Below are positions 35,223 through 58,523 of a stretch of DNA of 64,000 bases, in pieces; position 1 is the stretch's first letter; each line of letters begins with the position of its first letter. The translations under genes were made by a program, and so were the position numbers. Under the pieces are notes generated by a model. The model searched no databases. It was not told where the DNA came from and saw nothing but the letters and a program-made list of their open reading frames with translations. The DNA comes from Paragemmobacter straminiformis (GTDB lineage: Bacteria; Pseudomonadota; Alphaproteobacteria; Rhodobacterales; Rhodobacteraceae): positions 558,001 through 622,000 of the forward strand of contig NZ_JACLQD010000001.1 in assembly GCF_014243445.1 (NCBI RefSeq), read 5' to 3'.

Positions 35223-35229
35223 GGGCGTC

Positions 35230-36222: not shown

Positions 36223-36235
36223 AAGGAAGCCCGAA

Positions 36236-39171: not shown

Positions 39172-39390
39172 TTACGCAAACAGCAATAACACGACCGTAC
39201 AACAAGGTGCAGTCAAGTTTGCGTAGTGCGGATTTTCCGAACAGGGGTGCGACAGACAGACGAAGCGAAAAACCTATACTTTGGATCAGTTACCAAGACG
39301 GCGGCCGATCCGTGCAAGCGGGGTTCTGCGAATCCTGTTGCCCGTCCGGCGCATGGGGTTAGACTCGGGCAAAGACCAAAGAGGACCGGC

Positions 39391-40383
39391 GTGGCAGGCA
39401 TTCGCGACATCGCAGAAAAGGCGGGGGCCTCGATCGCAACCGTGTCGCGGGTGATCAACGGTTCGGGCTATGTCTCGCCGGGGATGCGCGCGCGGATCGA
39501 AGCGGTGATCGCCGAATTGCAGTTCCGCCCCAACGCAGGCGCGGCGCTGATGCGGCGTGGGAAAAGCCGGATGGTGGGTGTGCTGCTTCCGGCGCTGGAT
39601 GTGAAGTTCTTCGGCATCCTCGCGCATGTGATCGAACAGGCGCTGTTCCGGCGCGGCTACCACGCCTTCATCTGCTGCAGTTCCGAAAGCCCCGAGCACG
39701 AGGCCGAATACATCGCCGCCATGCTGGCGCAACGGGTGGACGGGGTGATCATCGCCTCGGTCGCCTCGGACGCTGCCGCCGCCGCACGGTTGACGGCGGC
39801 CGGCGTTCCCATCGTGGCGGTGGACCGTGCGATTGCGGGGGCGGTGACGGTCAAGGCCGACCATTACGCGGGCGGGCGCCTGATGGCCGGCTATCTGACC
39901 GGCTTGGGCCACAGGCGCATCGCGGTCATCGGCGCTCCGGAACATTCGACGCCGGTGCAAGAGCGGCTTGCCGGTGTCCGCGACGCGCTGGCCGGGGCGG
40001 GGCTGGAGCCTGTCGCCGTGGCGCTCGGGGCAAAGCATGGCTTCGAGGCCTGCCGCGACCTGCTGCTCGGCCTGCTCGACAGGGGCTTGGCGGCAGATGC
40101 GGTGATCGGATTGACCGACCTTGCCGCCCTTGGTGCGATCCACGCGCTGCACGAGCGCGGCATTTCGGTGCCGACGGATGTGTCGGTGATCGGCTTCGAC
40201 GACATGCCGCTGGCGCGCTACATCATTCCGCAGCTGACCACCGTGGCCCAGCCCATCCGCGAGATCGGCGAGTTGGCGGTGGAACAGATCGTGCGGCTGA
40301 TGACGGGCGAGGCGCTGAGCGATGCGACGCCCCCTGCCCTGTCGGTCGTGGTGCGCGGCACCACAGCCCCGCGAAAGACCTGA
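39391..40383 (+). CDS. LacI/GalR-family transcriptional regulator
   Basis: A 330-residue repressor. The HTH and hinge (residues 1-60) read GIRDIAEKAGASIATVSRVI, NGSGYVSPGMRARI and IAELQFRPNAGAALMRRGKS. The periplasmic-binding-protein-like domain includes MVGVLLPALDVKFFG and ends SVIGFDDMPLARYIIPQLTTV. GTG at 39391 is chosen because GAGG is 6 bases upstream and the HTH begins there. It is convergent with the PfkB-kinase gene; the aldolase-dehydrogenase-kinase operon next to it has a perfect LacI-type palindrome at its start, making that operon its likely target. The effector sugar is unknown. Confidence 0.87.
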   Translation: MAGIRDIAEKAGASIATVSRVINGSGYVSPGMRARIEAVIAELQFRPNAGAALMRRGKSRMVGVLLPALDVKFFGILAHVIEQALFRRGYHAFICCSSESPEHEAEYIAAMLAQRVDGVIIASVASDAAAAARLTAAGVPIVAVDRAIAGAVTVKADHYAGGRLMAGYLTGLGHRRIAVIGAPEHSTPVQERLAGVRDALAGAGLEPVAVALGAKHGFEACRDLLLGLLDRGLAADAVIGLTDLAALGAIHALHERGISVPTDVSVIGFDDMPLARYIIPQLTTVAQPIREIGELAVEQIVRLMTGEALSDATPPALSVVVRGTTAPRKT

Positions 40384-40445
40384 GCGGCTTTCATACTCGG
40401 ACAAATATCCTCGGGTGGGTCCGGGAGGGCAGACAGCCCTCCCGG
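40384..40445 (+). repeat. Dispersed CAAATATCC element, copy F, with hairpin
   Basis: It begins immediately after the LacI stop codon: GCGGCTTTCATACTCGGA, CAAATATCCTCGGGTGGG, then the stem CCGGGAGGGC-AGACA-GCCCTCCCGG (40421-40445). It fills the whole gap to the convergent kinase gene and can act as a bidirectional terminator. Confidence 0.78.
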
Positions 40446-40447
40446 GG

Positions 40448-41422
40448 TCAAAGCAGGGCGACCAGGGGGGGGATGGATTCCGTGGCCGTGGCGCCTTTCA
40501 GCGCAGCCGCCGCCGCGCGGTGGCCAAGGCGAAGGCAGGCGTCGGGCTGCCAGCCTTCGTGGATGCCGTAAAGGCAGCCCGCGGCAAAGGCATCGCCCGC
40601 GCCGACGGGGCTGACGATGTCTTCGGGCATCACCGGGTCGGGGCGTCGGGTGATGCGGGTGCCGTCGGCGCCGAACCACAGGCCCAGCGCGGGGGTATGC
40701 AGGATCACGGCACGGGCGACACCTCCGGCCAAAAGCCGGGCGGCTGCGGCGGCAATGGCGGATTCGTCCGCGGCTCCGGCAATGGCGATGCCCGTGGCGC
40801 GGGCGGCTTCGACCTCGTTCAGGAAAAGGTAGTCGATATGGGGCAAGGCCGCTTCGACGGCGGCGCGGAATTCGGCGCGGTCGGTCGAGACAAGATCGAC
40901 CGCCGTCTCCATCCCCGCCGCCTTGGCGCGGGCAAGCACGCGGCCAGCACCGGTCTGGCCCTGCTCGACAAGATCGAGCTGGCCCAGAAGGTTCAGGTAG
41001 CCGAGGTAGAAGATACGCGCCCCACGGGCTGCGGCGGATTCGACGGCGACGTCCTCTTCCGAGAGCAGGTCATTGGTGCCGGGGTGATAGAAAAAGGTCC
41101 GGCTGTCACCGGGCAGGTTCATCACATGGGTATGGGCGGTGGGGGCGCGGCCGGTCTGTTTCAGCCCTGCGCGGTCGGCACCTGCCCCCTTGACCGCCGC
41201 AAGGACGGTTTCGGCGTGGCGGTCGGTGCCGATCAGGCCCATCGCATAAAGCGGCAGGCCGGTGCGAAAGGCCGAGAGGGCAAGAAGGACGTTTGCGGCG
41301 CCGCCGCCGGTTCCCTCGACCTCGTCCCTGATGCGGACGAGGTCGCTTTTCTGCGGCCATGCCTCGATCGTGTGGACGATGTCCACGATCCAGTTTCCGG
41401 CACAGGCGATGCCGCGCTTCAT
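40448..41422 (-). CDS. PfkB-family carbohydrate kinase
   Basis: A 324-residue ribokinase-fold kinase. The GG motif near the N-terminus is DEVEGTGGGAANVLLALSA, and the ATP/anion-hole motif with the catalytic aspartate is SPVGAGDAFAAGCLYG near residue 270. The substrate class (ribose, 2-keto-3-deoxy acid, fructose-like) cannot be fixed. It is the last gene of the three-gene minus-strand operon and overlaps the dehydrogenase gene by 4 bases (ATGA). Together with the upstream dehydrogenase and class I aldolase, it should turn a sugar or polyol into a phosphate that the aldolase splits. Confidence 0.85.
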   Translation of the reverse strand: MKRGIACAGNWIVDIVHTIEAWPQKSDLVRIRDEVEGTGGGAANVLLALSAFRTGLPLYAMGLIGTDRHAETVLAAVKGAGADRAGLKQTGRAPTAHTHVMNLPGDSRTFFYHPGTNDLLSEEDVAVESAAARGARIFYLGYLNLLGQLDLVEQGQTGAGRVLARAKAAGMETAVDLVSTDRAEFRAAVEAALPHIDYLFLNEVEAARATGIAIAGAADESAIAAAAARLLAGGVARAVILHTPALGLWFGADGTRITRRPDPVMPEDIVSPVGAGDAFAAGCLYGIHEGWQPDACLRLGHRAAAAALKGATATESIPPLVALL

Positions 41423-42558
41423 GCGTAGGCGACCTTGACCGATTGGCCGGACTTGCCCGCCTGAAGTGCTGCGGTCAGCACGGCGTGGTGGGCGGCGGCC
41501 TCGGCCGGGGTGGCGCAGGGGAAGCCCTTGGCATCGCCCCCTGCCAGCTCGTCGACAAAGGCGGCCCACATCTGCTGGATGGCATCGGTAAAGCCGAATT
41601 CGAATATGCCGCCCGTGATGGCGGGGAACAGCGGGGTGTAGCCCAGATCCTCGGTGGCCCAAGCCTGCGGCCCGCCTGCCGTGTAATGCATATAGGACCA
41701 TTGGCGCGGCGATTTGGTGGTGAAGAAGGCCGAGCCGTTCATGCCCAGCACGCGGATGGACCATGTGTTCGCCTCGCCCGGGGCGATGCGCCATGTTTTC
41801 AGCACCAAGGGGAACGCGCCGTCTGCATGGGGGACGGTGGCGGTGATGGTGGCGTTGTCCCATGTGTCGCAAGGGACGGTGCCGCCCTTGCCGTCGGGGC
41901 GGGTGGGGACGCGTTTGACAAGCGAGGCTGTGACGCTTTCGGGGCGCCAGCCAAGGCGGAGGGGCACGTGCAGGACATGCATGCCCAGATCGCCCATGCA
42001 GCCGTATTCGCCGTTCACGCGGGCCATGCGCTTCCAGTTCAGCGGCTTTTGCGGGTTGATGTCCGACGAATGGAGGAAGCACGCTTCCACTTCGAGGATC
42101 GGACCGATGGCGCCGGAGGTGACGAAATCAACGACCTTCTGCGCACCGGGGTAGAAGGGCATTTCCGAGGAGCAGCGGACGAGAAGATCGGGTCGGGCGG
42201 CGATGGCGGCCATGATGGTGGCGTTCTGCGCGGCATCCATGCCGAAGGGTTTCTCGCCCAAGAGGTGCTTTCCGGCGGCAAGGATCGCGGGGTAAAGCTC
42301 GGCATGCAGCACGTGGGGGACGGCGCAGTAGACGGCGTCGATGTCAGGGTTGGCGAGGAGTTCGCGGTAATCGGTCGTCTGCTGCATCGGGCCGAGGTGG
42401 TCGGCATACCAGCCCAGAAGCGCGGGGTTGGTGTCGCAGACGGCGACGATGCGGGGCTTGGCCTTCACATCGGTCAGGTGCAGCCAGCGGGCGGCGGCCG
42501 AGGCGAATTCGCGGCCCATCAGACCGCAGCCGATGATGCCGAAGCGGATCTCGCGCAT
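41419..42558 (-). CDS. Gfo/Idh/MocA-family oxidoreductase
   Basis: A 379-residue NAD(P)-dependent oxidoreductase with FGIIGCGLMGREFASAAARW at the N-terminus, the family motif GEKPFGMD near residue 105, and a C-terminal domain with SYMHYTAGG. Related proteins act on inositol, on sugars and on glycosides. It is the middle gene of the operon (2 bases from the aldolase stop, 4-base overlap with the kinase). It differs clearly from the other three Gfo/Idh proteins in this window (37978, 46912, 54346), so it probably has a different substrate. Confidence 0.82.
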   Translation of the reverse strand: MREIRFGIIGCGLMGREFASAAARWLHLTDVKAKPRIVAVCDTNPALLGWYADHLGPMQQTTDYRELLANPDIDAVYCAVPHVLHAELYPAILAAGKHLLGEKPFGMDAAQNATIMAAIAARPDLLVRCSSEMPFYPGAQKVVDFVTSGAIGPILEVEACFLHSSDINPQKPLNWKRMARVNGEYGCMGDLGMHVLHVPLRLGWRPESVTASLVKRVPTRPDGKGGTVPCDTWDNATITATVPHADGAFPLVLKTWRIAPGEANTWSIRVLGMNGSAFFTTKSPRQWSYMHYTAGGPQAWATEDLGYTPLFPAITGGIFEFGFTDAIQQMWAAFVDELAGGDAKGFPCATPAEAAAHHAVLTAALQAGKSGQSVKVAYA

Positions 42559-42560
42559 GG

Positions 42561-43382
42561 TCAGATCATCTCCAAGGCGGTTTCGGGTGCGGTGCCTTCG
42601 TGGACGATGGCCATCAGCGCGCGGGTCATTCCCGCGGGGTTCGGATGCTGGACCACGTTGCGGCCATAGACGATGCCGCGCGCGCCTTGACGCATCAGCT
42701 CGGCGGTGCGCGACAGGATTTCGGCATCGGAGACACGGCCCCCGCCACGGACAAGGACGGGCAGACCTTGGGCGATTTCGATGACGCGGTGGTATTCGGC
42801 CACGTTCTCGCAGGGATCGGCCTTGATGATATCGGCGCCAAGTTCGGCGGCCTGCCGGACAAGCGGCAGGATCAGGTCGATGTTGCCGTCGACCATGTAG
42901 CCGCCTTTGGAATTGTCTTGCATCACAAGGGGTTCGACCATGAGCGGCATCCCCATGATCTCGCATTCCCGTTTCAGGCTGTTCACGTTGCGGACGCAGG
43001 CGCGGTAGACCTCGGGCTGGTTGGGCAGCAGCAGCAGGTTGACCACGACGCAGGCCGCATCGAGGACCACGCCCTGCTCGACAGCGCGGTCGATCACCTC
43101 GGAGAAGAGCGACGAGGGGAGCGGGGTGCCGTAGACATTGGCGATGTCAGTGCGCAGCACCAGCGCGGGGCGGGCCTTGCCGGGGATGGCTTGCAGGATC
43201 GGCGCGGTGCCGGGGGGAAGCTGGATCGCATCGGGGGCGGCGGCGGCGATGGTCTGGATCGCCTGTTTCATGTTCTCGATCCCGCCGAGGAAGGAGCGTT
43301 CGTTGAACATGCCGTGGTCGATCGCCACGTCGAAGCAATTGCCCGAGGGCGAGAAGAGGCGGTTCATGCGGGCGGATTTCAT
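42561..43382 (-). CDS. Class I aldolase of the DeoC/DhnA (FbaB/LsrF-like) family
   Basis: A 273-residue TIM-barrel aldolase. The N-terminal DVAIDHGMFNE motif and the Schiff-base lysine in ELGADIIKADPCEN match DhnA-type class I aldolases; LPVLVRGGGRVSDAEIL and GARGIVYGRNVVQHPNP form the phosphate-binding end. It would split a ketose phosphate into two smaller units. It is the first gene of the operon. The ATG at 43382 is used; MNR at 43367 is an alternative. The perfect palindrome 15 bases upstream should place it under repressor control. Confidence 0.8.
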   Translation of the reverse strand: MKSARMNRLFSPSGNCFDVAIDHGMFNERSFLGGIENMKQAIQTIAAAAPDAIQLPPGTAPILQAIPGKARPALVLRTDIANVYGTPLPSSLFSEVIDRAVEQGVVLDAACVVVNLLLLPNQPEVYRACVRNVNSLKRECEIMGMPLMVEPLVMQDNSKGGYMVDGNIDLILPLVRQAAELGADIIKADPCENVAEYHRVIEIAQGLPVLVRGGGRVSDAEILSRTAELMRQGARGIVYGRNVVQHPNPAGMTRALMAIVHEGTAPETALEMI

Positions 43383-43396
43383 GGGGGCGACCTGTG

Positions 43397-43412
43397 CTGG
43401 AAACGTTTCCAG
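43397..43412. promoter_or_regulatory. Perfect LacI-family operator, CTGGAAACGTTTCCAG
   Basis: A 16-base perfect palindrome with the central CG and TGNAAACGTTTNCA pattern characteristic of LacI/GalR operators. It lies 15-30 bases upstream of the aldolase start codon, where bound repressor would block transcription of the minus-strand operon. The LacI-family gene at 39391, just beyond this operon, is the obvious candidate. Confidence 0.75.
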
Positions 43413-43460
43413 AAGGTTACTTGCCGCCACCCGCCTTGTCAAAAGCTTTGGTGGAGGGTT

Positions 43461-43500
43461 TTGCAGAAGGCGGAAATTCAACTGGTATGATGAGTATACA
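43461..43500 (+). promoter_or_regulatory. apnO promoter region with NanR-type half-sites
   Basis: TTGCAG (43461-43466) and TATGAT (43486-43491, spacer 19) could be the promoter. Overlapping the -10 are GGTATG (43484-43489) and GTATAC (43494-43499), resembling the GGTATA repeats bound by NanR-type GntR regulators. The 10-mer ACTGGTATGA (43481-43490) recurs at 45197-45206, upstream of apnL. Confidence 0.45.
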
Positions 43501-43571
43501 TGCGCTAGACCCTTTGCCAAGCCGCCGGACGCGGTTGTTCAGCTTTGCGAAACCCTTGGAGGAAAAAGCAC

Positions 43572-44414
43572 ATGGCGAAATCGGTCGCGGTTCTGGGAGC
43601 GGGCGGGAAGATGGGTTTCCGTGTTACACGGAAATTCGTTGAAGCCGGGTATGACACCCGCGCGGTGGAGGTGGGCGACATCGGTCGCGCGCGTCTGGCC
43701 GAGGTGGGCATTGCGGCGGTCGACCAGACGGCGGGGCTGGACGGGGCCGAGGTGGTGGTTCTGGCCCTGCCCGACAGCCTGATCGGCAAGGTCGCGCACG
43801 AGATCGTGCCGAAGCTGGCTGCGGGGACGATGGTCGTGATCCTCGACGCTGCGGCCCCCTATGCGGGGGCGCTGCCGGAACGCGCCGATATCACCTATTT
43901 CGTGGGCCATCCCTGCCACCCGCCGCTTTACAACGACGAGACCGACCCCGCAGCACGGGCCGATGTGCATGGCGGCGTGGCCAAGCAGGCCATCGTCTGC
44001 GCGCTGATGCAGGGGCCCGAGGCGCATTACGAACTGGGTGCGGAAATCTGCCGAGTGATGTGGTCGCCCGTGATGCGGACGCATCGGGTCACGGTCGAGC
44101 AGTTGGCCATTCTGGAACCGGGGCTTTCGGAAATGATCGCCATGCCCTTTGTCGACATGATGGCGGAAGCGGTCGAGGTTTGCGCCGGGACATACGGCAT
44201 CCCGCGCGAGGCGGCGTTCGACTTCCTGATCGGGCATCTGAATGTGGAAATCGCCATGTGGTTCGGCTATTCGCCCAAGGTGCCGTCGGATGCGGCGCTG
44301 CGGGTGATGGCCCATGCGCGGAAATATCTGATCAAGGACACATGGTTGGACGTTCTGTCGCCCCCCGTGGTCAAGGACAGCTGCGAGCTGATCGTGCAGG
44401 GCCGCACCGCCTGA
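43572..44414 (+). CDS. apnO: Probable D-apionate oxidoisomerase
   Basis: A 280-residue NAD-dependent dehydrogenase with an N-terminal Rossmann motif, VAVLGAGGKMGFRVTRKF, then VVVLALPDSLIGKVAHEI, YFVGHPCHPPLYNDET and an all-helical C-terminal domain of the 6-phosphogluconate-dehydrogenase type. ApnO converts D-apionate to 3-oxo-isoapionate with migration of a hydroxymethyl group. The call rests on the resemblance to the ApnO family and on apnL, apsD, oiaX and oiaK downstream. GGAGG precedes the start. It ends one base into the gntR start codon, so the regulator is co-translated. Confidence 0.75.
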   Translation: MAKSVAVLGAGGKMGFRVTRKFVEAGYDTRAVEVGDIGRARLAEVGIAAVDQTAGLDGAEVVVLALPDSLIGKVAHEIVPKLAAGTMVVILDAAAPYAGALPERADITYFVGHPCHPPLYNDETDPAARADVHGGVAKQAIVCALMQGPEAHYELGAEICRVMWSPVMRTHRVTVEQLAILEPGLSEMIAMPFVDMMAEAVEVCAGTYGIPREAAFDFLIGHLNVEIAMWFGYSPKVPSDAALRVMAHARKYLIKDTWLDVLSPPVVKDSCELIVQGRTA

Positions 44415-45136
44415 TGAGCGGGCCGATCCAGAAGCGCAAACTGGGCGAGGAGGTGCGCTTGCGCCTGCTTGCCCAGATCGAGGGCGGCGAATTGCGGCCC
44501 GGCGACGCGCTGCCCTCGGAGCGGGAACTGATGGAAAGCCTTGGCGTCGGCCGCCCCGCGATCCGCGAGGCGATGCAGGCGCTGGAGCGGTCGGGGCTGA
44601 TCGGAATCCGCCACGGGGAACGGGCGCGGGTGGCGGAACCTTCGGTCGGGCGGATGGTCGACCAGATGTCCGAGGCGATGAAACATCTGCTGGTGCATTC
44701 CAACGCGAGTCTCGAGAACCTCAAGGATGCGCGGGTGACATTCGAGGTCGAGATGGCCCGGATCGCTGCGCGGCGGCATTCGGGAAGCGACCTTGAACGG
44801 TTGCGCGACACGGTGGCGCGGCAAGAGGCGGCGCTGGGTGACGGGGCGGCGTTCCGGCGGCTGGACGGGCAGTTCCACCGCGAGATTGCGGCGATCAGCG
44901 GCAATCCGATCTGGTCGGCGCTGTCGGACGGGCTGTTCCGCTGGCTGAACGATTTCCACGTCGATCTGGTGAGCGTGCCGGGGAAAGAGAACCTGACGCT
45001 GGCCGAGCATCGCGGCATCATTGCGGCGATTGCCACGGGGGATGCGGCGCGGGCGGCGGCGGCGATGGCGGATCACCTGAACCGCGCGAACGAGATGTAT
45101 CGGCGCGGCGGCGGCGATTCCGGAATGCACAGGTGA
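44414..45136 (+). CDS. GntR-family regulator, FadR/NanR subfamily
   Basis: A 240-residue regulator. The winged HTH is at residues 5-80 (PGDALPSERELMESLGVGRP then AIREAMQALERSGLIGIRHG). The all-helical FadR C-terminal domain has LKDARVTFEVEMARIAARRH and the metal-binding histidines in FHREIAAISGNPIW and EHRGIIAAI. This arrangement resembles NanR. ATG shares one base with the apnO stop. It sits inside the predicted apiose locus and is the likely local repressor, with a pathway sugar acid as inducer; matching ACTGGTATGA sites precede apnO and apnL. Confidence 0.85.
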   Translation: MSGPIQKRKLGEEVRLRLLAQIEGGELRPGDALPSERELMESLGVGRPAIREAMQALERSGLIGIRHGERARVAEPSVGRMVDQMSEAMKHLLVHSNASLENLKDARVTFEVEMARIAARRHSGSDLERLRDTVARQEAALGDGAAFRRLDGQFHREIAAISGNPIWSALSDGLFRWLNDFHVDLVSVPGKENLTLAEHRGIIAAIATGDAARAAAAMADHLNRANEMYRRGGGDSGMHR

Positions 45137-45196
45137 TGCAGACACGGGGTGCGCGGCCTTAGGGCTTTGGCAGGTTTCGTGAAGCAGGGATGAAGC

Positions 45197-45206
45197 ACTG
45201 GTATGA
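45197..45206 (+). promoter_or_regulatory. ACTGGTATGA site upstream of apnL
   Basis: This 10-mer is identical to the one overlapping the predicted apnO promoter and contains the GGTATG half-site. It lies 18 bases before the preferred apnL start. The identity supports joint control by the GntR-family protein encoded between the two sites. Confidence 0.4.
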
Positions 45207-45223
45207 CGACTGGGGGCGGAGCG

Positions 45224-46915
45224 ATGGAATATCAGGTCGGGCGGCTTTCGCTTCTGGTCGTCGAGGGTGATCTGCGGCGCATCTGTTTTGACGGGGTCGA
45301 GGTGCTGCGGCGGGTGTCCTATCCGGTGCGCGACGCAAGCTGGGGCACCTTTGCGGTGCGGACGGTTTCGGAAGCGGTCGAGCGGGATGCGGGGCGGTTG
45401 CGCTATGAACACCATTTCGCCGCGCGGGATGGCGGCTTTGCGGGGGTGTTTCGCGCCGAGATCGAGGAGGCGCATCTGGTGCTGACGGTCGAGATCGACG
45501 CCGCGACGGATATTGCGGTGAACCGCGCGGGGTTCACGCTGCTGCACCCTTTGCGCGGCGTGTCGGGGCAGGCGCTGGCGGTGACGCATGGCGACGGGTC
45601 GGTCGAGGCGCTGCGCTGGCCTGCGACGATCTCGCCCGGCCAGCCGGTGTTCGACATTGCGGGACTGGCGCACGAGGTCGCGGGCGTGCGGGTCGCCCTG
45701 ACGATGGCGGGCGAGGTGTTCGAGATGGAGGACCAGCGCAACTGGACCGATGCGAGTTACAAGACCTATTGCCGCCCGCTTGCCCTGCCCCTGCCCTTTG
45801 CGCTTGGCCCCGATGCCCCCGTTCGGCAGCGGGTCGAGCTGCGCCTTGGCGGGCAAGCAGCCAAGGCGGCGGCGGGGGATGCGGCGCAAGAAGGTATCGT
45901 GCCCGAGGTCGCCGTGGCGATGGAGGCCGGACTGGCCGAGGCGGTCTTGCCGGGGTTTGCGGTGCAATTGCGGCTGCGGGCGGGGGACAGGGTGCCTGCG
46001 CTGGCGGGGCCGGTGCATCTGGAGATCGTGGTTGACGAAGGGTTGGACGGGTTGGCGCCCATCGCCGCCGCCTGCGCGGGGCTGGATGTGGCGCGGGTCA
46101 CGGTGTTGACCGCGCCTTATCTGAAAAGCCACCAGCCCGAGGGGCCATGGCCCGACGGGCCGACCCCGATGGCGCTGGTGGCGAAAGCGCGGGCGCTGTT
46201 TCCCCGTGCCGCCGTGGGCGGGGGGATGTTCACCAATTTCACCGAATTCAACCGCTGCCGCCCCGATCCCGATCTGGTGGATTTCGTGACCTTCGGCGGG
46301 ACGGCGGTGGTTCATGCCGCCGACGACATGTCGGTGCTGGAGACGCTTGAGGCCTTGCCCGGGGTCTTTGCCTCGGCGCGCGGCATCGCGCGGGGCAAGC
46401 CCTTGCATCTTGGGCTTTATTCGATTGGCATGCGGTCAAATCCCTATGCGGCGGATTGTGTGGCCAACCCCGCGCGCGAGCGTCTGGCGATGGTGCGCGA
46501 CGACCCGAGGCAAGAGACGCGCTTTGCCGCCTGCTTTGCGGCGGGGGTGCTGGCCGGGGCAAGTGCGCAAGGGGTGGCATCGGTCGCGCTGGCAATGTCG
46601 GACGGCCCCTTGGCTGCGGGCGGGGCCGGTGGGGTTTGGCCGGTCTATCACGTGCTGCGCTTTGCCCGTGACCTTGCGGGCGCGGCGGCGCGGACCGGGG
46701 CGGGCGGGAGCATCCGCATCGAAACGGCGCGGGGGTCCATCATCGCGGTGGTTGAGGGGGCGGTGACGCTGCCCGCCGGTGCGCGCGGGCATGTGCTTTG
46801 CGCGGCGACCGAAGCGGCGGCGCGGGCGGCGGACTGGCTTGACGGGCCGCCGCAGGATTTGGGCGGGGTGCGGCTTTCGCGCTTCGATCTGGCTTTTCTG
46901 GAGGGACGGGCATGA
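45224..46915 (+). CDS. apnL: Probable D-apionate lactonase
   Basis: A 563-residue protein. The N-terminal beta-rich domain (about 1-210) has GDLRRICFDGVEVLRRVSYP, VRDASWGTFAVRTVSE and DQRNWTDASYKTYCRPLALP. A TIM-barrel-like middle follows (about 250-450, LEIVVDEGLDGLAPIAAACA), and a small beta domain ends the protein. This layout and the NWTDASYKTY motif match the ApnL family, which hydrolyses D-apionolactone to D-apionate. It is followed by apsD with a 4-base overlap. ATG at 45203 is an alternative; 45224 has GGAG directly upstream. Catalytic residues cannot be named with certainty. Confidence 0.72.
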   Translation: MEYQVGRLSLLVVEGDLRRICFDGVEVLRRVSYPVRDASWGTFAVRTVSEAVERDAGRLRYEHHFAARDGGFAGVFRAEIEEAHLVLTVEIDAATDIAVNRAGFTLLHPLRGVSGQALAVTHGDGSVEALRWPATISPGQPVFDIAGLAHEVAGVRVALTMAGEVFEMEDQRNWTDASYKTYCRPLALPLPFALGPDAPVRQRVELRLGGQAAKAAAGDAAQEGIVPEVAVAMEAGLAEAVLPGFAVQLRLRAGDRVPALAGPVHLEIVVDEGLDGLAPIAAACAGLDVARVTVLTAPYLKSHQPEGPWPDGPTPMALVAKARALFPRAAVGGGMFTNFTEFNRCRPDPDLVDFVTFGGTAVVHAADDMSVLETLEALPGVFASARGIARGKPLHLGLYSIGMRSNPYAADCVANPARERLAMVRDDPRQETRFAACFAAGVLAGASAQGVASVALAMSDGPLAAGGAGGVWPVYHVLRFARDLAGAAARTGAGGSIRIETARGSIIAVVEGAVTLPAGARGHVLCAATEAAARAADWLDGPPQDLGGVRLSRFDLAFLEGRA

Positions 46916-47922
46916 CGCATCGGGGCGTGCTGATCGGCTGCGGGTTCTTTGCCCGCAACCATATGGAGGCCTGGACGCGGCAGGCGGGGGTGAAGATCGT
47001 GGGGGTCTGCGACACCGACCCCGCCAAGGCCGAGGCTTTCGCGGCGGCCTACGGGGCCGAGGCGGGCACCGATGCGGCAGAGATGCTGGCGCGGTTGCGG
47101 CCCGATTTCGTCGACATCGCCACCACGGTCGGGTCGCACCGGGCGCTGGTCGAACTGGCGGCGCGCCATGCGCGGCTGGTGATCTGCCAGAAGCCCTTTG
47201 CCGAGACGCTGGACGACGGCGCGGCGATGGTGGCGGCCTGTGCCGAGCGCGGTGTCGTGCTGACGGTGCACGAGAATTTTCGCTGGCAACGGCCGATCCG
47301 CGAGATGAAGGCGCGGATGGACGGGCTGGGCAAGCCCCGCTTCCTGCGGCTGTCGTTCCGGCATGGCTATGACATCTATGCCAACCAGCCCTATCTGGCC
47401 GAGGTGCCGGACCTTGCCCTGACCGATGTGGGGCTGCACCTGTTCGACATGGCGCGCCATCTGATGGGCGATGTGGTGCGGGTGGCCTGCGAGGTGCAGC
47501 GGCGCAATCCGGCGGTGAAGGGCGAGGACGCCTTTACCGCGCTGCTGCGCCACGCCTCGGGGGCGGTGAGTTCGGTGGAATGCTCGTTTCATTCGGTGCT
47601 GGAGCCGGACCCGTTCCCGCAATCGCTGGCGCTGCTGGAGGGGGACGAGGGGTCGCTCGAGCTGACGCAGGGCTATGCGATGCGGCTGCACAAGGGCGGG
47701 CGGGTCGAGAGTTTCGACACGGAACCTGCCTGCCCCGACTGGGGGGCGAAGCCGTGGCATCTGATACAGGATTCGGTCGTGGCCTTTCAGGCGCATGTGG
47801 CGGCGGTGCTGGACGGGCGGGCCGAGGCGGCGCCTTCGGGGGCGCATAACCTCGGGACATTGCGGCTGACGCTGGCGGCGATACGGGCGGGGCAGACGGG
47901 ACAAACGGTGGATCTGGCATGA
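46912..47922 (+). CDS. apsD: Probable D-apiose 1-dehydrogenase, Gfo/Idh/MocA family
   Basis: A 336-residue oxidoreductase: GVLIGCGFFARNHMEAWTR for NAD binding, then VICQKPFAETLDDG, where the usual EKP motif is QKP (Lys94 kept), then TVHENFRWQRPIREMK, and a C-terminal domain with LTDVGLHLFDMARHLMGDVV. ApsD oxidises D-apiose to apionolactone, the first step of the oxidative apiose routes. The substrate is inferred from its place between apnL and oiaX with ATGA overlaps on both sides. On sequence alone another aldose would also fit. Confidence 0.7.
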   Translation: MTHRGVLIGCGFFARNHMEAWTRQAGVKIVGVCDTDPAKAEAFAAAYGAEAGTDAAEMLARLRPDFVDIATTVGSHRALVELAARHARLVICQKPFAETLDDGAAMVAACAERGVVLTVHENFRWQRPIREMKARMDGLGKPRFLRLSFRHGYDIYANQPYLAEVPDLALTDVGLHLFDMARHLMGDVVRVACEVQRRNPAVKGEDAFTALLRHASGAVSSVECSFHSVLEPDPFPQSLALLEGDEGSLELTQGYAMRLHKGGRVESFDTEPACPDWGAKPWHLIQDSVVAFQAHVAAVLDGRAEAAPSGAHNLGTLRLTLAAIRAGQTGQTVDLA

Positions 47923-49163
47923 CACGCTTCGAGGCGGATTATCTGGTCGAGACGGGCTACGATCTGGCCGTGGCGGCCGAGGCGATGGCGGGCGAGCAAT
48001 CGTCGGGCACCTTTCTGCCCGTGCCGGGGGAAACGCCCGAGCTGAAGGCGCGGGCGGCGGCGCGGGTCGAGCGGATCGAGGAGATGGGAGAGGTCGCGGC
48101 GGCCCTGCCCGGGGCGGGCAAAGGGTCGGGCGTGGTGCGGGCGGCAAAGGTGACGCTGTCATGGCCGCTTGCCAATATCGGGCCGAGCCTGCCGAACCTG
48201 CTGGCGACGGTGGCGGGAAACCTGTTCGAGTTGAAGTATTTCAGCGGCCTGCGCCTGCTTGACCTGCGCCTGCCCGTGGAATTCGTGCAGCGCTATGGCG
48301 GGCCTGCCTTTGGCGTTTCGGGGACGCGCAGGCTGACCGGGGTGCAGGGGCGGCCGTTGATCGGAACGATCATCAAGCCGTCGGTCGGGCTGTCGGCCGC
48401 GGATACGGCGGAAATGGTCGACCTGCTTTGCGCGGCAGGGATCGACTTTATCAAGGATGACGAGTTGCAGTCGGACGGGCCTGCCTGTCCGTTCGGGGAC
48501 CGCGCCCGCGCGGTGATGGAGGTGATCAACCGCCATGCGGACCGGACGGGGCGCAAGGTCATGTTTGCCTTCAACGTCACGGGCGAGGTGGACGAGATGC
48601 AGGCGCGGCACGATCTGGTCGAGACGCTGGGCGGGACTTGCGTGATGGTCTCGCTCAACTCGGTCGGGTTGACGGGGTTCACGGCGCTGAAGCGGGCGGC
48701 GCGCCTGCCGATCCATGCGCATCGCAACGGCTGGGGCGCGCTGTCGCGGCATCCGTCGCTGGGGTTCGACTATGTGGCATGGGCCAAGCTGTGGCGCGTG
48801 GCGGGGGCGGACCATCTGCATGTGAACGGGATCAGGAACAAGTTCTGCGAAAGCGATGCGTCCTCGATCGCCTCGGCCCGTTCGGTGCTGCGCCCGATGT
48901 TCGCAGGGGGGCCGGGTTGCGAGGCGATGCCGGTGTTTTCCAGCGGGCAATCGGCGGCGCAGGCGCATGACACATGGGCGGCGCTGGGGTCTGTCAATCT
49001 TATCCATGCGGCGGGGGGCGGGATCATGGCGCATCCGGGCGGGCCTGCGGGGGGTGTGGAAAGCATGCGGGCGGCGTGGGAGGCCGCCGTTGCGGGCGTT
49101 CCTCTGGCGGTGGCGGCGCGCGAGAACCGCGCCCTTGCGCAGGCGGTGGGGCTGTTTTCGTGA
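47919..49163 (+). CDS. oiaX: RuBisCO-like protein, probable 3-oxo-isoapionate-4-phosphate transcarboxylase/hydrolase
   Basis: A 414-residue form IV RuBisCO-like protein. Retained RuBisCO positions are Lys153 (IIKPSVGL), the carbamylation site Lys179 with Asp181/Glu182 (FIKDDE), His268-Arg269 (HAHRNGW), His301, the serine in FSSGQS, and GGGIMAHPGG for phosphate. The loop-6 lysine needed for CO2 fixation is absent (LHVNGIRNKF instead), so it is not a carboxylase. In apiose pathways such proteins cleave 3-oxo-isoapionate 4-phosphate, either by transcarboxylation/hydrolysis (giving 3-phosphoglycerate and glycolate) or by decarboxylation. No erythrulose-phosphate isomerase genes are present, which favours the former. 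Confidence 0.78.
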   Translation: MTRFEADYLVETGYDLAVAAEAMAGEQSSGTFLPVPGETPELKARAAARVERIEEMGEVAAALPGAGKGSGVVRAAKVTLSWPLANIGPSLPNLLATVAGNLFELKYFSGLRLLDLRLPVEFVQRYGGPAFGVSGTRRLTGVQGRPLIGTIIKPSVGLSAADTAEMVDLLCAAGIDFIKDDELQSDGPACPFGDRARAVMEVINRHADRTGRKVMFAFNVTGEVDEMQARHDLVETLGGTCVMVSLNSVGLTGFTALKRAARLPIHAHRNGWGALSRHPSLGFDYVAWAKLWRVAGADHLHVNGIRNKFCESDASSIASARSVLRPMFAGGPGCEAMPVFSSGQSAAQAHDTWAALGSVNLIHAAGGGIMAHPGGPAGGVESMRAAWEAAVAGVPLAVAARENRALAQAVGLFS

Positions 49164-50542
49164 TGCCCTCCACTGATGCGCTGCCCGCCCCCGTTGCGCT
49201 GCCCGACCCTGTTGCGCTGCCTGATGGCGTGCTGCTGACATGGTATGGCGATGATTTCACCGGATCGGGCGCGGTGCTGGAGGCGCTGGAATTCGCGGGG
49301 TTGCCTGCGGTCCTGTTCCTTGGCCTGCCGTCGCCCGCGCTGATGGCCCGCTTTGCGGGCAAGCGGGCGGTGGGAATTGCGGGCGATGCGCGCAGCCGCG
49401 ATCCGGCATGGATGGAGGCGCATCTGCCGCCCGTCTTTGCCGCGCTGCGGGCGATGGGCGGGCGGGTGCTGCATTACAAGCTGTGTTCGACCTTTGACAG
49501 CGCGCCGCATGTGGGCAGCATCGGCAAGGCCGCCGAACTGGGGATTGGCGACTGGGCGCCGCTGGTGGTGGGCGCGCCGAAGATCGGGCGCTGGCAGATG
49601 TTCGGCACCCTGTTCGCGCGCAGCCCGCAAGGCGTGGTGCGGCTGGACCGGCACCCGACGATGGCGGTGCATCCGACGACACCGATGCACGAGGCCGATG
49701 TGCGGCGGCATCTGGCGGGGCAGACGGATTTGCCGGTGGGGCTGGTCGATGTGCTGGCCTTGCAGGCGCGGGAGGGCGGGGCCGCCTTGGCCGCGGAACT
49801 GGCGGCGGGCGCGCGGATCGTGGCATTCGACGTGCTGGACCAGCAGACATTGGCCGAGGCGGGGCGGGTGATCTGGGCGCGGGCGATGGAGCGGCCGCTT
49901 TTCGCGCTGGGCTCGCAGGGGTTGGAAGAGGCGTTGATCGCGCATTGGGACCTGCCGCGCCCCGCGCCACGGCTGGCGGGGCCAGCGGGGCGGATCGCGG
50001 TCGTGTCGGGATCATGTTCGCCCGATACGGCGCGGCAGATCGCGGCTGCCGGGGCGGCGGGCTTTGCCGCGCTGCGGTTGGCGGCAGAGCGGGCGGTGGA
50101 TGCGCGCGGCTGGGCGGAAGAGGTGGCACGGGTCGAGGCGGCGGCACTGGCGGCGCTGGAACGGGGGGAAAGCCCGCTTGTCTATACGGCGAGCGGGCCG
50201 GAGGATGCGGCCCTCGGGCGGGTGGCTGCGGCGCGCGCGGCGGCGGGGCTGGATGCGGTGGCGATGACGGCGCGCCTGTCGCAGGGTCTGGGCGGCATTC
50301 TGGCGCGTGTGGTGCGCAAGGCGGGGCTGACGCGGGCCGCGATTGCGGGGGGCGACACGTCGAGCCATGCCACGGCGGAACTGGGCTGCGTGGCGCTGAC
50401 GGCCGAGGCGGCGATTGCGCCTTCGGTTCCGCTGCTGACCGCGCATTTCAACAGCGGGCCTGCGCTGGAACTGGTGCTGAAGGGCGGGCAGATGGGGGAT
50501 GCGGGGCTGTTCGCGCAGATCCGCGACGGGATCAGGGCCTGA
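49163..50542 (+). CDS. oiaK: DUF1537/four-carbon-acid-sugar-kinase family, probable 3-oxo-isoapionate kinase
   Basis: A 459-residue kinase of the two-domain DUF1537 family. The N-terminal domain starts LLTWYGDDFTGSGAVLEAL with the DDxTG substrate motif; the C-terminal ATP-binding domain has AIAGGDTSSHATAELG and ends ALELVLKGGQMGDAGLF. OiaK makes the 4-phosphate that OiaX uses, and the start codon overlaps the oiaX stop by one base. The first 20 residues contain a small tandem PVALPDPVALPDG repeat, and translation might start later. A bidirectional hairpin follows the stop. Confidence 0.75.
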   Translation: MPSTDALPAPVALPDPVALPDGVLLTWYGDDFTGSGAVLEALEFAGLPAVLFLGLPSPALMARFAGKRAVGIAGDARSRDPAWMEAHLPPVFAALRAMGGRVLHYKLCSTFDSAPHVGSIGKAAELGIGDWAPLVVGAPKIGRWQMFGTLFARSPQGVVRLDRHPTMAVHPTTPMHEADVRRHLAGQTDLPVGLVDVLALQAREGGAALAAELAAGARIVAFDVLDQQTLAEAGRVIWARAMERPLFALGSQGLEEALIAHWDLPRPAPRLAGPAGRIAVVSGSCSPDTARQIAAAGAAGFAALRLAAERAVDARGWAEEVARVEAAALAALERGESPLVYTASGPEDAALGRVAAARAAAGLDAVAMTARLSQGLGGILARVVRKAGLTRAAIAGGDTSSHATAELGCVALTAEAAIAPSVPLLTAHFNSGPALELVLKGGQMGDAGLFAQIRDGIRA

Positions 50543-50547
50543 CAGGC

Positions 50548-50581
50548 GGCGACCGGCCCCGGAGGTCTGGGGCCGGTCGCC
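50548..50581. terminator. Bidirectional terminator hairpin after oiaK
   Basis: Perfect 13-base stem GGCGACCGGCCCC-GGAGGTCT-GGGGCCGGTCGCC located 5 bases after the oiaK stop and between convergent genes. No T-run follows. Confidence 0.65.
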
Positions 50582-50658
50582 AGAAGCGCCGCTGCGTCCT
50601 GTTCGAGCGAAGGGGATCAGACAGGATCAGGACGGGTAACGCGGCACCAAGGCTTTGG

Positions 50659-52018: not shown

Positions 52019-52714
52019 TCAGCCGAGGCCGTGCAGCCATTCCATGCGGGCGGCAAGGTCGGGCGCGCCGAAGGCGAGCGAGCCAAGCACCACGGTTTCG
52101 GCCCCTGCCCCGCGCAGCAGCGGCACGGTGGTATCGCGGATGCCGCCATCGGCAGCAAGGACGATGCGGCGTCCGGCGGGCGCGATCAGCGCCTTGGCTT
52201 CGGCCAGACGGGTGGTGGCGCGGGGGTCGAGGCCCTGCCCCTTTACCCCGATGGCGGTGCCGAGCAGGGTCAGGACATCGAGCCGTCCGATATGGGGTGC
52301 GGCGCGCGACACGGGGGTTTCGACGCGCAGCACCATGCCGGATTTGAGGCCGTATCCCGCGATCAGATCAAGCGCCTTTGACGCATTGGCGTTTTCGGCG
52401 TGCAGGCTGATGAGGTCGGCCCCCGCTTCGGCGAATTGTTCGACCTGCGACAGAAGCACGGCGTCGTCGACCATCAGATGCACGTGGATCGGCAGGTCGG
52501 AGACATCGCGGATGCGGGCGACGAGGTCGGGAAAGAACAGGAAGGCGGGGGCAAAGACGCCGTCGGCCACGTCGATATGCAGGATATCGGCATGGGGACG
52601 GATGCGGGCCATGTCATCGGCCAAGCGGATCAGGTCGGCGGACCAGACCGAAAACTCGGCGATCAGGCGGTGTGTCGGCAGGGCGGCGAGCCAGTCGGAA
52701 GCAGGGCGGGGCAT
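52019..52714 (-). CDS. Ribulose-phosphate 3-epimerase-like protein
   Basis: A 231-residue TIM barrel of the RPE/AlsE family. Motifs are RPHADILHIDVADGVFAPAF (metal His/Asp), LPIHVHLMV (metal His), DLISLHAE, a LTLLGTAIGVKGQG in place of the RPE VMTVNPGFGGQ loop, and VLAADGGIRD with phosphate-binding GAETVVLGS. The changed loop suggests a ketose phosphate other than ribulose 5-phosphate. It is the last gene of the minus-strand sugar operon, behind the alpha/beta hydrolase, and could feed its product to the pentose phosphate pathway. Confidence 0.8.
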   Translation of the reverse strand: MPRPASDWLAALPTHRLIAEFSVWSADLIRLADDMARIRPHADILHIDVADGVFAPAFLFFPDLVARIRDVSDLPIHVHLMVDDAVLLSQVEQFAEAGADLISLHAENANASKALDLIAGYGLKSGMVLRVETPVSRAAPHIGRLDVLTLLGTAIGVKGQGLDPRATTRLAEAKALIAPAGRRIVLAADGGIRDTTVPLLRGAGAETVVLGSLAFGAPDLAARMEWLHGLG

Positions 52715-52724
52715 GGTCGGTCCT

Positions 52725-53513
52725 TCAGGTCAGGAAATCGGTAAGGGCGCGGTGCAGGGCCGCGAGATGGGCCGGTTTGTCACTGCCCTTGGGCGGCAGG
52801 GTGACATGGGTCGCAGCCGGAATGAGGGCGGCGAGGTCGCGGGACAGGGCGAGCGGGTGGATCGCATCTTCGGCGCAGCCCGCGACAAGGGTGGGCAGGC
52901 GCAGGGCGCCGAGGTCGGCGGGGGTGACGCCCGGGCCGTCGCGCGAGATGGTGTTGAGCAGGATCGCCGTGCGCGAGACGGGGGTGCGGTCGAAAAAGCC
53001 GCGCAGCGAGTTGAGGTTGTCGGGCGCGGTCGCGGCGAGGGTTTGCGCGGTGTCCGAGGACAGGAAGGCCGCCCGTGCCTCGGCCACGGGAAGGCGGACG
53101 AGGGCAAGGCCGACTTCGGCATTGGGTGCCATGTTGGGCGGGGCGGCATCGCAGCCCCAAGCGGGGCGGACGAGAAAGAGGCGCGAGACAAGTTCCGGCC
53201 GCGTGACGGCAAGGCGCAGGGCGATGGCCGCCCCCATCGAGATGCCACCGATGGCGACGGGCTGGCCAAGCGTTTCGGCCAGTGCCGCCACATCCTGCGC
53301 GAATTTGGCAAGGCCGGGCTGCGGGTCGAAGTCGGATGTGCCGTGGCCGCGACAGTCGAGCGTGAGGCAGCGCAGGCGGGGATCGGCCGGGAAGGCCTCG
53401 AAGGTCTGGCGCGCATCGCCGCAGAGGCCGTGCTGGAAGATCACCGGACGGCCCGCGCCGCCCGCATCGTGGACGGTCAGGCGCAGGCCGTCGCGGTGCA
53501 GGACCGAAGGCAT
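52725..53513 (-). CDS. Alpha/beta-fold hydrolase (3-oxoadipate enol-lactonase-like)
   Basis: A 262-residue hydrolase with the oxyanion motif IFQHGLCGD, nucleophile elbow IGGISMGAA (Ser113 by estimate) and late acidic/histidine residues in VAGCAEDAIHPL and the C-terminal THVTLPPKG region. The overall look is that of 3-oxoadipate enol-lactonase relatives. In a sugar operon with a Gfo/Idh dehydrogenase it may open the lactone that the dehydrogenase makes. ATG shares a base with the upstream gene's stop (TGATG). Confidence 0.78.
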   Translation of the reverse strand: MPSVLHRDGLRLTVHDAGGAGRPVIFQHGLCGDARQTFEAFPADPRLRCLTLDCRGHGTSDFDPQPGLAKFAQDVAALAETLGQPVAIGGISMGAAIALRLAVTRPELVSRLFLVRPAWGCDAAPPNMAPNAEVGLALVRLPVAEARAAFLSSDTAQTLAATAPDNLNSLRGFFDRTPVSRTAILLNTISRDGPGVTPADLGALRLPTLVAGCAEDAIHPLALSRDLAALIPAATHVTLPPKGSDKPAHLAALHRALTDFLT

Positions 53514-54346
53514 CAGGCCAGCCCGCGCAGGAAGGCTGCGACGGCGGGCGCTTCGGGCGCGGTCAGGCCGTGGGTGACGAGATCGCCGTGAAAGCCCGCC
53601 GCTTTGAGGCAGGCGATGAAATGCGGGAAATCGACCACCCCCTGCCCTGCCGTGGCAAAGCTGCCGTCGGGGTGGCGGTCCTTGGCGTGGGCCATGACGA
53701 TCCGGTCGGCCAGACGGTCGACCGCATCGGCGATGATGGCGCGGCGGTCAGCATCGGAGGCCGTCTCGAACAGGTTGGCGGGATCGAGGACGATGGCGAG
53801 GGCGGGGCTTTGCAAGCTGTCGATCAGGCGGCGCGCGGCGGCGGCGCTGTCGACGACATTTGCAAGCTCGGGTTCGATGCCAAGGCGGATGCCGGCGGAT
53901 TCGGCCTGTTCGCAGGCCTTGGCCATTTCAGCCAGCAGGTCGCGCCATGCCTCGGGCGTGGCATTGTCGGGGTGGTGCGCCCATTGGTCGGTGGCATGGC
54001 GGGTGCCGGTGCAAAGCGTGACCATGCCGGTTCCCATGGCGCGGGCATGGGCGATGAGCAGCGACAGGCGGCGCAGGCCCGCCGCGCGCTGGGCGGGGTC
54101 GGGGTGGATCATGTTGTAGGTGCCCGAGACGGCGGCGATGGCGACGCCCGTCGCCTCGGACGCGCGGCGGATGGCGGCGATGTCGGCTTGGGCAAGCGCG
54201 TCGGGCATGGCGGGCATGCCCGAGCAGGCCATGTTGTATTGCACCGCCGCATAGCCCGCGTCACGGGCCGCGGCCAGCACGGTCGCGGGGTCGCTGCCTG
54301 CGAAGGTTTTGGCAAAGATGCCCAGACGAAGCGGCGCGGGCTGCAT
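53513..54346 (-). CDS. Sugar phosphate isomerase/epimerase family (xylose-isomerase-like TIM barrel)
   Basis: A 277-residue AP-endonuclease-2 fold protein: LGIFAKTFAGSDPATVLAAA, VAAVSGTYNMIHPDPAQRAA, RLGIEPELANVVDSAAAARR (metal Glu), LDPANLFET, MAHAKDRHPDG and a C-terminal VDFPHFIACLKAAGFHGDLV. Such enzymes isomerise or epimerise free sugars or keto-inositols using a divalent metal; the exact substrate is unknown. One base overlaps with both neighbours, so the operon is tightly coupled. Confidence 0.8.
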   Translation of the reverse strand: MQPAPLRLGIFAKTFAGSDPATVLAAARDAGYAAVQYNMACSGMPAMPDALAQADIAAIRRASEATGVAIAAVSGTYNMIHPDPAQRAAGLRRLSLLIAHARAMGTGMVTLCTGTRHATDQWAHHPDNATPEAWRDLLAEMAKACEQAESAGIRLGIEPELANVVDSAAAARRLIDSLQSPALAIVLDPANLFETASDADRRAIIADAVDRLADRIVMAHAKDRHPDGSFATAGQGVVDFPHFIACLKAAGFHGDLVTHGLTAPEAPAVAAFLRGLA

Positions 54347-55422
54347 CAGACCGGACCCGCCGCCTGATCGATGCGCACGGGCTGGCCGCTGCGGACCGAT
54401 TGGGCGATGGCGACCATCGCGCGGACCGAGGCGATGCCGTCCTCGATATCGGCGCCTTGCATCGGGGTGCCGTTCAGCACGGTATCGGCGAAGCCTTCGA
54501 GCTGGCGGCGGTAGAAGTGACCGTCGGCGCCGAGGACGCGGCGGCTTTCGCCCGCGCTTTCGTGGAAGATGTCGACCTCGGAGGATTTGTAATACCAGGG
54601 GTTATAGGTCTTGCCGAGGATGGACCCGTTGGCGCCGTAGATCTGGAAGCCTTCGTGCCAGTCCATGCGGACGGCGACGGTCAGGTCGAGATGGCCGAGC
54701 GTGCCGTTTTCGAATGCGACATCGACGAACCAGCAGCGCAGGCCGCCACGGTTGAGCAAGCGCGCGTCGACCGAGGCGATGGGGCCTGCGAAGTAGCGGG
54801 CGGTGTCGACCAGATGGCTGCCGTGGGCAAGCATGTAATAGCGGTCGAGGTCGGCTTTGGGGTCGCCTGCGGGTTTGCGGGCGTTGCGGCTGGTGACCAT
54901 CAGCGGCTGGACGGCATCGGTCATCGGGTAGCGGTGGGTGCTGTCGCAATACCATGCTTTGAGCGCGACCATCTCGCCCATGTCGCCGTCGACGAAGGCC
55001 TTGGCCGCCTGCAAACCGGCGTCGAAGCGTTTCATATGGCCGACCTGGAGGATGCACCCCGAGGCGGCGGCGGCGGCGCGGAGGCTTTCGGCCTCTTCCA
55101 CCGAGGTGGCGAGGGGTTTTTCGCACAGCACATGCTTGCCCGCTTCCAGCGCGCGTTTGGCGGCGGGAACGTGGAAGGCATCGGAGGTGGCGATGATGAC
55201 GGCCTGAAGGTCGGGGTCGGCCAGCATGGCATCGTAATCGGCAAATTGCCGTTCGGGCGCGTGGGTGGCGGCCATGCGTTCGCGCAGGTCGTCGGCCACG
55301 TCGCAGATGGCGTAGAGCGTGGCATTGGCCGCCTTGGTGCAGCTTTCGAAATGCGCGGCCTGCGCGATGGGGCCGCAGCCGAGCACGCCGACGCGGAGAA
55401 GGCGGTCTTGTTTCTTGGGCAT
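54346..55422 (-). CDS. Gfo/Idh/MocA-family oxidoreductase
   Basis: A 358-residue NAD(P)-dependent sugar or inositol dehydrogenase with VGVLGCGPIAQAAHFESCTK, the EKP motif in HVLCEKPLATSVEEA, HMKRFDAGLQAAKAFV, and THRYPMTDAVQPLM...YYMLAHGSHLVDTARYFAGP. It lies 63 bases after the ABC ATPase gene and is coupled to the isomerase gene. It likely performs the first oxidation of the sugar brought in by the adjacent importer. Confidence 0.83.
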   Translation of the reverse strand: MPKKQDRLLRVGVLGCGPIAQAAHFESCTKAANATLYAICDVADDLRERMAATHAPERQFADYDAMLADPDLQAVIIATSDAFHVPAAKRALEAGKHVLCEKPLATSVEEAESLRAAAAASGCILQVGHMKRFDAGLQAAKAFVDGDMGEMVALKAWYCDSTHRYPMTDAVQPLMVTSRNARKPAGDPKADLDRYYMLAHGSHLVDTARYFAGPIASVDARLLNRGGLRCWFVDVAFENGTLGHLDLTVAVRMDWHEGFQIYGANGSILGKTYNPWYYKSSEVDIFHESAGESRRVLGADGHFYRRQLEGFADTVLNGTPMQGADIEDGIASVRAMVAIAQSVRSGQPVRIDQAAGPV

Positions 55423-55485
55423 TCGATCCTCGTCGCCTGTGTCGGTCGTGGTGCGGGGGCGGACCGTGATCCGCCCCGCCTTGGC

Positions 55486-57277: not shown

Positions 57278-57361
57278 TTGGCGGTCCTGTCGGCTGGGAT
57301 GGCAAACCCCGGAACCGTGGCGGATTGCCGGGCACCGGGGCGCTGGTCTTGGGAGCAAATT

Positions 57362-57384
57362 GCCCCCGCCGCAGGGGCGGGGGC
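57362..57384 (-). terminator. Intra-operon hairpin between binding protein and permease genes
   Basis: Stem GCCCCCGCC-CCTGC-GGCGGGGGC (minus strand) followed by AATTTGC. It probably acts as an attenuator or 3'-end stabiliser like the chvE-gguA hairpin. Confidence 0.6.
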
Positions 57385-57392
57385 GGGAGCGA

Positions 57393-58379: not shown

Positions 58380-58488
58380 GTTTTCTCCTCCCATTGGGCC
58401 GGAATCGCCCTTTTGGGCTTTCGCGCCGGACCCGGTTCACGTGGGGCAAATGAAAGCCGAGAGGCGGCTTGGGTCAAGAGAAATTTTT

Positions 58489-58508
58489 TGCAGCAATATT
58501 TTGCTGCA
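58489..58508. promoter_or_regulatory. TGCAGCAA-TATT-TTGCTGCA palindrome, likely operator
   Basis: Perfect 8-base arms around a 4-base centre, in an AT-rich stretch between the SorC/DeoR-type regulator's stop and the binding-protein gene's start. This is the expected place for an operator controlling the importer operon. The TTGCA half-site also appears upstream of the regulator and aldolase genes (59476-59494). Confidence 0.6.
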
Positions 58509-58523
58509 CTTGCGAAAAGGATT

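Follow-up and report, generated by a model that had tools for sequence, protein, structure and literature searches.

Organization of the locus

A 64,000-nucleotide stretch of the Paragemmobacter straminiformis genome (contig NZ_JACLQD010000001.1, positions 558,001 to 622,000; hereafter the window, whose own numbering is used throughout) contains an apiose-type locus of six intact genes on the plus strand at 43572–50542. The reading frames contain no internal stops and encode counterparts of five enzymes of oxidative D-apiose catabolism, among them a RuBisCO-like protein (RLP), together with a regulator (Table 1). An initial annotation, made from the sequence alone, had described a complete oxidative apiose pathway here; its coordinates and gene order (apnO, gntR, apnL, apsD, RLP, oiaK) match the open frames, and it was correct that the locus is free of transporter genes. 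Its claim of tight coupling holds for four of the five junctions, i.e., apnO/gntR (one base of overlap), apnL/apsD (four), apsD/RLP (four), and RLP/oiaK (one), with each of the six genes involved in at least one overlap. At the gntR/apnL junction, however, the two genes are 87 bases apart with ATG 45224 as the apnL start, or 66 bases apart with the in-frame ATG 45203. The former start is likelier because the second of two operator-like sites covers ATG 45203.

Table 1. Genes and sequence elements of the proposed apiose operon.
Feature	Positions	Strand	Supporting evidence
apnO, D-apionate oxidoisomerase-like, 280 aa	43572–44414	+	PF16896 PGDH_C, E 5.1e-59; PDB 3c24, 5t57; 70% identity to L025
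nanR-type FadR/GntR regulator, 240 aa	44414–45136	+	NF003011 NanR subfamily, 285.7 bits (cut-off 260); GntR and FCD domains
apnL, D-apionate lactonase-like, 563 aa from ATG 45224	45224–46915	+	NF049900, 359 bits (cut-off 750), E 4.5e-107; ATG 45203 also in frame
apsD, D-apiose dehydrogenase-like, Gfo/Idh/MocA, 336 aa	46912–47922	+	PF01408; PDB 5uhw, E 2.8e-89; 69% identity to L150, 65% to L025
RLP, proposed OiaT type, 414 aa	47919–49163	+	PF00016; active-site residues and tree
oiaK-like 3-oxo-isoapionate kinase, 459 aa	49163–50542	+	NF042436, 450 bits (cut-off 700), E 7.3e-135; PF07005 and PF17042
Operator-like site 1, ACTGGTATGATGA	43481–43493	+	5' of apnO-nanR; exact match to ACTGGTATRAYGA
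Operator-like site 2, ACTGGTATGACGA	45197–45209	+	5' of apnL; the other genome match to ACTGGTATRAYGA; overlaps alternative apnL start 45203
15-bp hairpin, terminator-like, without T run	50548–50581	+	3' of oiaK; 50536–50610 folds at -48.8 kcal/mol, z -3.9

The encoded enzymes match the families of oxidative apiose catabolism

The ApsD, ApnL, ApnO, OiaK-type kinase, and RLP families are all present together at the locus. The best-scoring NCBIfam models of ApnL, the RLP, and the kinase were D-apionate lactonase (NF049900), the 3-oxo-isoapionate-4-phosphate decarboxylase OiaX (NF042437; E 7.4e-129, 430 bits, cut-off 700), and 3-oxo-isoapionate kinase (NF042436), respectively, and the closest PDB match of the dehydrogenase was 5uhw, which we take to be ApsD. 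ApnO matched PDB entries 3c24 (E 3.2e-124) and 5t57, and the PDB listing gives neither of them this function. The E-values and the co-occurrence of the genes rule out a chance origin of these family matches.

One point against the apiose assignment is that the ApnL, OiaX, and OiaK matches all scored below curated cut-offs; for ApnL and OiaK, we used these equivalog cut-offs to judge how close the orthology is, not to define the locus. OiaK also scored below its cut-off in two loci with RLPs that are OiaX by score or annotation (L017, 477 bits; L018, 462 bits), but ApnL of both loci passes (1061 and 988 bits). The window ApnL is therefore truly divergent, like that of L025 (364 bits). No Pfam match was obtained for ApnL, and its sequence matches in the PDB were weak ones to ribosomal L16 (best E 0.01). 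Its AlphaFold model (predicted local distance difference test score 92) has a strand-rich N-terminal half and a helix/strand half, and the best whole-chain structural matches were GH36 and GH97 glycosidases. As template modelling scores were low (0.23–0.28) and the root-mean-square deviation was near 20, the model suggests a likeness in broad arrangement at most.

We compared the locus with 124 fetched loci (L numbers) that encode an RLP of this superfamily, with genes grouped by identity thresholds of our own choosing; loci L001, L012–L014, L100, L102–L147, and L176–L178, which were short, from the same genome, or fetched for another purpose, stand outside this set. ApsD, ApnL, and ApnO all occurred beside a non-OiaX RLP in 25 loci, and one or two of them did so in 57 (ApsD and ApnO in 9, ApnL and ApnO in 14, ApnL only in 2, ApnO only in 32). 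A further 10 loci encoded an OiaX-type RLP and 18 contained none of the scored genes. These counts are to be read with caution, as many loci have short flanks and a missing gene may sit outside the fetched stretch, L083/L157 and L099/L161 are duplicates with identical RLPs, and the sampling is biased, 80 of the loci being those whose RLPs best match that of the window. In L025, the order apnO-apnL-apsD-RLP-oiaK is that of the window minus nanR, with identities of 70, 52, 65, 70, and 61%, respectively. In L004, a non-OiaX RLP (60% identical to that of the window) is accompanied by ApnL (770 bits, cut-off 750) and OiaK (822 bits, cut-off 700) that both exceed their cut-offs. Among genomes of the window's family, 53 of 394 encoded an RLP matching that of the window at E ≤ 1e-60; in a sample of its class, the OiaX model matched 4 of 385 genomes at E ≤ 1e-80, and all four scores fell short of the cut-off.

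The family matches and their recurrence in relatives make it very probable that the locus is an oxidative D-apiose operon, apart from the type of its RLP. The pathway itself is already known and the locus is a further case of it.

A NanR-type regulator is associated with a conserved operator-like motif

The regulator exceeds the NanR subfamily cut-off (Table 1). In relatives, the strongest 8-mer enrichment around apiose genes was that of ACTGGTAT, found in 46 of 68 NanR loci against 4.5 when segments were drawn at random from these loci, and overlapping 8-mers ranked next. The degenerate letters of the pattern ACTGGTATRAYGA were set after the enrichment to accommodate both sites in the window; the enrichment itself used relatives alone. 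Only two exact matches occur in the whole 4.1-Mb genome, both at the locus and on the same strand, and the reversed pattern has none; allowing up to one mismatch, shuffled windows yielded a mean of 0.02 matches. At this tolerance, 56 of the 68 loci with both NanR and an apiose gene contained the motif, compared to 2 for the reversed control. The corresponding numbers were 6 of 23 (control, 1) for apiose loci in which no NanR gene was detected and 3 of 33 (control, 0) for RLP loci lacking apiose genes. Requiring an exact match left 33, 3, and 2 loci of these classes, respectively, and no controls. The other 12 NanR loci lack the motif, which is a point against our reading.

These findings support the NanR-type protein as the putative local regulator of the operon, as the initial annotation had proposed for the interposed FadR/NanR-type gene, and the two ACTGGTATRAYGA sites are likely candidate NanR operators before apnO and apnL; we infer its binding, repression, and inducer at the locus. 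Published NanR sites comprise GGTATA repeats (PMC8012715) and TGGTATAW repeats (PMC4494728). The NanR system of Escherichia coli shares the regulator subfamily and the TGGTAT core with the locus described here, but its operator has three close repeats rather than one TGGTATRA element per site, and it serves a different sugar (PMC8012715). No published report of the ACTGGTATRAYGA motif was found among the literature matches listed, and we make no claim of novelty.

Candidate routes of apiose uptake

At least three kinds of importer are linked to the locus in relatives, i.e., a two-permease ATP-binding cassette (ABC) system (L019), a DUF2291-linked ABC system, and a MalK-type system (L072). The DUF2291-linked binding protein of L011 has a very close match in PDB 5ibq (E 3.9e-146), presumably an apiose-bound structure. 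In searches of the window's genome, DUF2291 was not found, the three linked binding proteins had no close homologues (the best by E-value being 25, 28, and 27% identical), and no match to the apiosidase family was found. The missing close importer homologues and apiosidase somewhat weaken the reading that the organism grows on this sugar. They would fit an alternative, itself compatible with an apiose operon, in which there is no dedicated importer: either the enzymes act on an intermediate that is internal or shared, or a general sugar importer such as ChvE-GguAB takes up apiose. ChvE (31345–32421) exceeds its cut-off, and ChvE-GguAB (31345–35222) is a possible general route for apiose.

Several observations oppose this alternative, which we consider rather unlikely. 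The open genes and kept sites argue for use of the pathway, and one linked permease has partial homologues in the genome with up to 44% identity. Moreover, importers vary between relatives, since 7 of the 17 in which ApsD is at least 51% identical show neither of the two scored binding-protein types, and L041 and L072 have another importer kind. We also considered the importer downstream of the operon (binding protein at 57393–58394). It is unlikely to serve apiose: its best PDB match is 5dkv, which we take to be tagatose-bound, and when 24 genes from elsewhere in the window were searched for in 101 loci, the only one with a match of at least 45% identity was the dehydratase at 36236, in one locus.

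The RLP is probably of the OiaT rather than the OiaX type

Two reactions of apiose RLPs are in print, namely decarboxylation by the Agrobacterium radiobacter K84 enzyme and transcarboxylation/hydrolysis by that of Xanthobacter autotrophicus (PMC6302742). The initial annotation named the window RLP OiaX, i.e., the decarboxylase. The window protein is 43% identical to the R. johnstonii RLP (780 bits against the OiaX cut-off of 700) and 70% identical to that of L025. In a FastTree phylogeny with a long-branched RuBisCO outgroup (L100), the 10 OiaX-type sequences formed one clade with a support of 100, and the window RLP fell outside it in a supported set of eight that comprised itself and seven RLPs encoded beside at least one apn gene.

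The active-site residues point in the same direction. Residues E26, N101, K153, K179, H268, H301, and K308 of the window RLP correspond to E60, N123, K175, K201, H294, H327, and K334 of RuBisCO. Whereas K175, K201, H294, and K334 are common to both RLP types wherever the sequence reaches them, E60, N123, and H327 are retained in 107/107, 107/107, and 106/106 window-like RLPs (one sequence being incomplete, and most having been picked by likeness to the window RLP) and are D, G, and Q in 10/10 OiaX-type RLPs. Retention of these three residues fits OiaT, since the transcarboxylase/hydrolase reaction requires carboxylation and hydrolysis after decarboxylation. The OiaX label was therefore rejected on the grounds of its score, clade position, and three residues; the cleavage stated in the initial annotation fits OiaT rather than OiaX. 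Judged by sequence, the window RLP is probably not the decarboxylase, and is likelier a transcarboxylase/hydrolase of the OiaT type that yields 3-phosphoglycerate and glycolate. Use of glycolate is plausible given that the genome encodes a GlcD-like protein, albeit one below the GlcD cut-off (427.5 bits, cut-off 567.9).

If the RLP were OiaX after all, the same operon would yield L-erythrulose 1-phosphate and CO2. Its top NCBIfam model is indeed OiaX, comparable apiose loci from the same family (L168–L172) encode OiaX-type RLPs, and the two types share K175, K201, H294, and K334. We nevertheless consider this improbable in view of the low score, the 43% identity, the position outside the clade, and the three differences that are constant in OiaX-type proteins.

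Other observations weigh against a firm OiaT assignment. E60, N123, and H327 are also kept in more distant RLPs from other gene settings (L005, L007, L009, and L010), as well as in the L173–L175 RLPs, and these residues thus exclude OiaX better than they prove OiaT. Ancylobacter, which like Xanthobacter belongs to the Xanthobacteraceae, encodes window-clade RLPs beside apn genes. However, two of the three related genomes searched hold a second RLP (L022, Ancylobacter oerskovii, 52% identity; L082, Azorhizobium oxalatiphilum, 49% identity), so that the characterized X. autotrophicus enzyme may resemble either kind.

Proposed pathway and comparison with known systems

We favor a reading of the locus as an oxidative D-apiose operon with an OiaT-type RLP and under NanR control, and assign this reading a probability of about 0.7. 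The oxidative reaction scheme and the name OiaT reportedly come from Carter et al. in 2018, and we infer each reaction in P. straminiformis by sequence relationship. ApsD would oxidize D-apiose to apionolactone, which ApnL would open to D-apionate; ApnO would oxidize and rearrange this to 3-oxo-isoapionate, which the OiaK-like kinase would convert to its 4-phosphate. The OiaT-like RLP would then shift the carboxyl group and hydrolyze what results, giving 3-phosphoglycerate and glycolate. The NanR-type protein may bind one site ahead of apnO-nanR and another ahead of apnL-apsD-rlp-oiaK, and would presumably be released by a pathway intermediate. The pathway of the initial annotation is upheld in its five enzyme types, which recur in relatives, but not in its naming of the RLP as OiaX.

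D-hamamelose, or another branched sugar or sugar acid of this kind, is a very unlikely substrate. The hamamelose pathway likewise ends in an RLP that yields 3-phosphoglycerate and glycolate, the Ochrobactrum RLP is described in hamamelose use (PMC8914248), and, as a point against our reading, 14 of the 124 loci pair a window-type RLP with a short-chain dehydrogenase/reductase (SDR) gene and no apiose gene. Against such a substrate, ApsD, ApnL, and ApnO co-occur in the window, as they do in 25 relatives whose RLP is not OiaX, and three of the 124 loci have apiosidase-like genes nearby (L041, recognized by Pfam; L149 and L172, by similarity to the L041 gene).

The locus presumably shares ApsD, ApnL, ApnO, the kinase, and an RLP with the pathway of X. 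autotrophicus; the RLP kind would also be shared if the OiaT assignment is right. The window locus differs in its divergent ApnL and the lack of a linked importer. OiaX-type apiose loci (L015–L018 and L168–L172) encode the ApsD and NanR families in 9/9 cases and ApnL, ApnO, and the kinase in most, but have RLPs of the other clade with D/G/Q residues; a DUF2291-linked binding protein was detected in 6/9. The Rhodobacteraceae strain LCG007, which grows on D-apiose, has an apiose cluster with the same five enzyme names, but its RLP is annotated as the decarboxylase (PMC11747546).

More tentatively, two RLPs may alternate in similar apiose operons of one family, with E60/N123/H327 versus D/G/Q marking re-carboxylation and hydrolysis versus decarboxylation alone. 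If so, the window RLP would be a close natural model of the carboxylation and hydrolysis half-reactions of RuBisCO, with the CO2 donor built in, and would be controlled by a NanR protein with an operator that the clade conserves. Because one pathway uses two RLP types that differ at these residues, it offers a simple test of what RuBisCO residues do after decarboxylation. The known pathway also gains a divergent, compact operon with its likely end products corrected to 3-phosphoglycerate and glycolate rather than a tetrulose phosphate, and the conserved ACTGGTATRAYGA motif provides a means of searching genomes for the apiose regulon.

Related RLP loci and neighboring genes

Some loci combine an RLP and a four-carbon acid sugar kinase without apiose genes: L101, where OiaX accompanies triose-phosphate isomerase and RpiB genes; L005 and L007, with SDR genes; and L009, L010, L080, and L088, with tripartite ATP-independent periplasmic (TRAP) importer and VOC genes. 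These loci perhaps belong to different pathways for branched sugars or sugar acids. RLPs with about 53–55% identity to that of the window are also encoded on haloarchaeal plasmids, and the RLP family therefore crosses domains.

Within the window, another sugar locus lies on the minus strand at 52019–59429 and encodes an RPE-like epimerase, an alpha/beta hydrolase, an AP_endonuc_2 isomerase, a Gfo/Idh dehydrogenase, an ABC ATPase and permease, the binding protein whose best PDB match is 5dkv, and a regulator of the DeoR/LsrR type. The region at 31345–37978 encodes ChvE, a GguAB-like ABC ATPase and permease, a 330-aa protein without a Pfam match, and an L-arabinonate dehydratase that exceeds its cut-off, and is likely an L-arabinose route. 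Just upstream of apnO, at 39226–43520, are genes for a LacI regulator on the plus strand and a PfkB kinase, a Gfo/Idh dehydrogenase, and a DeoC/LacD-type aldolase on the minus strand.

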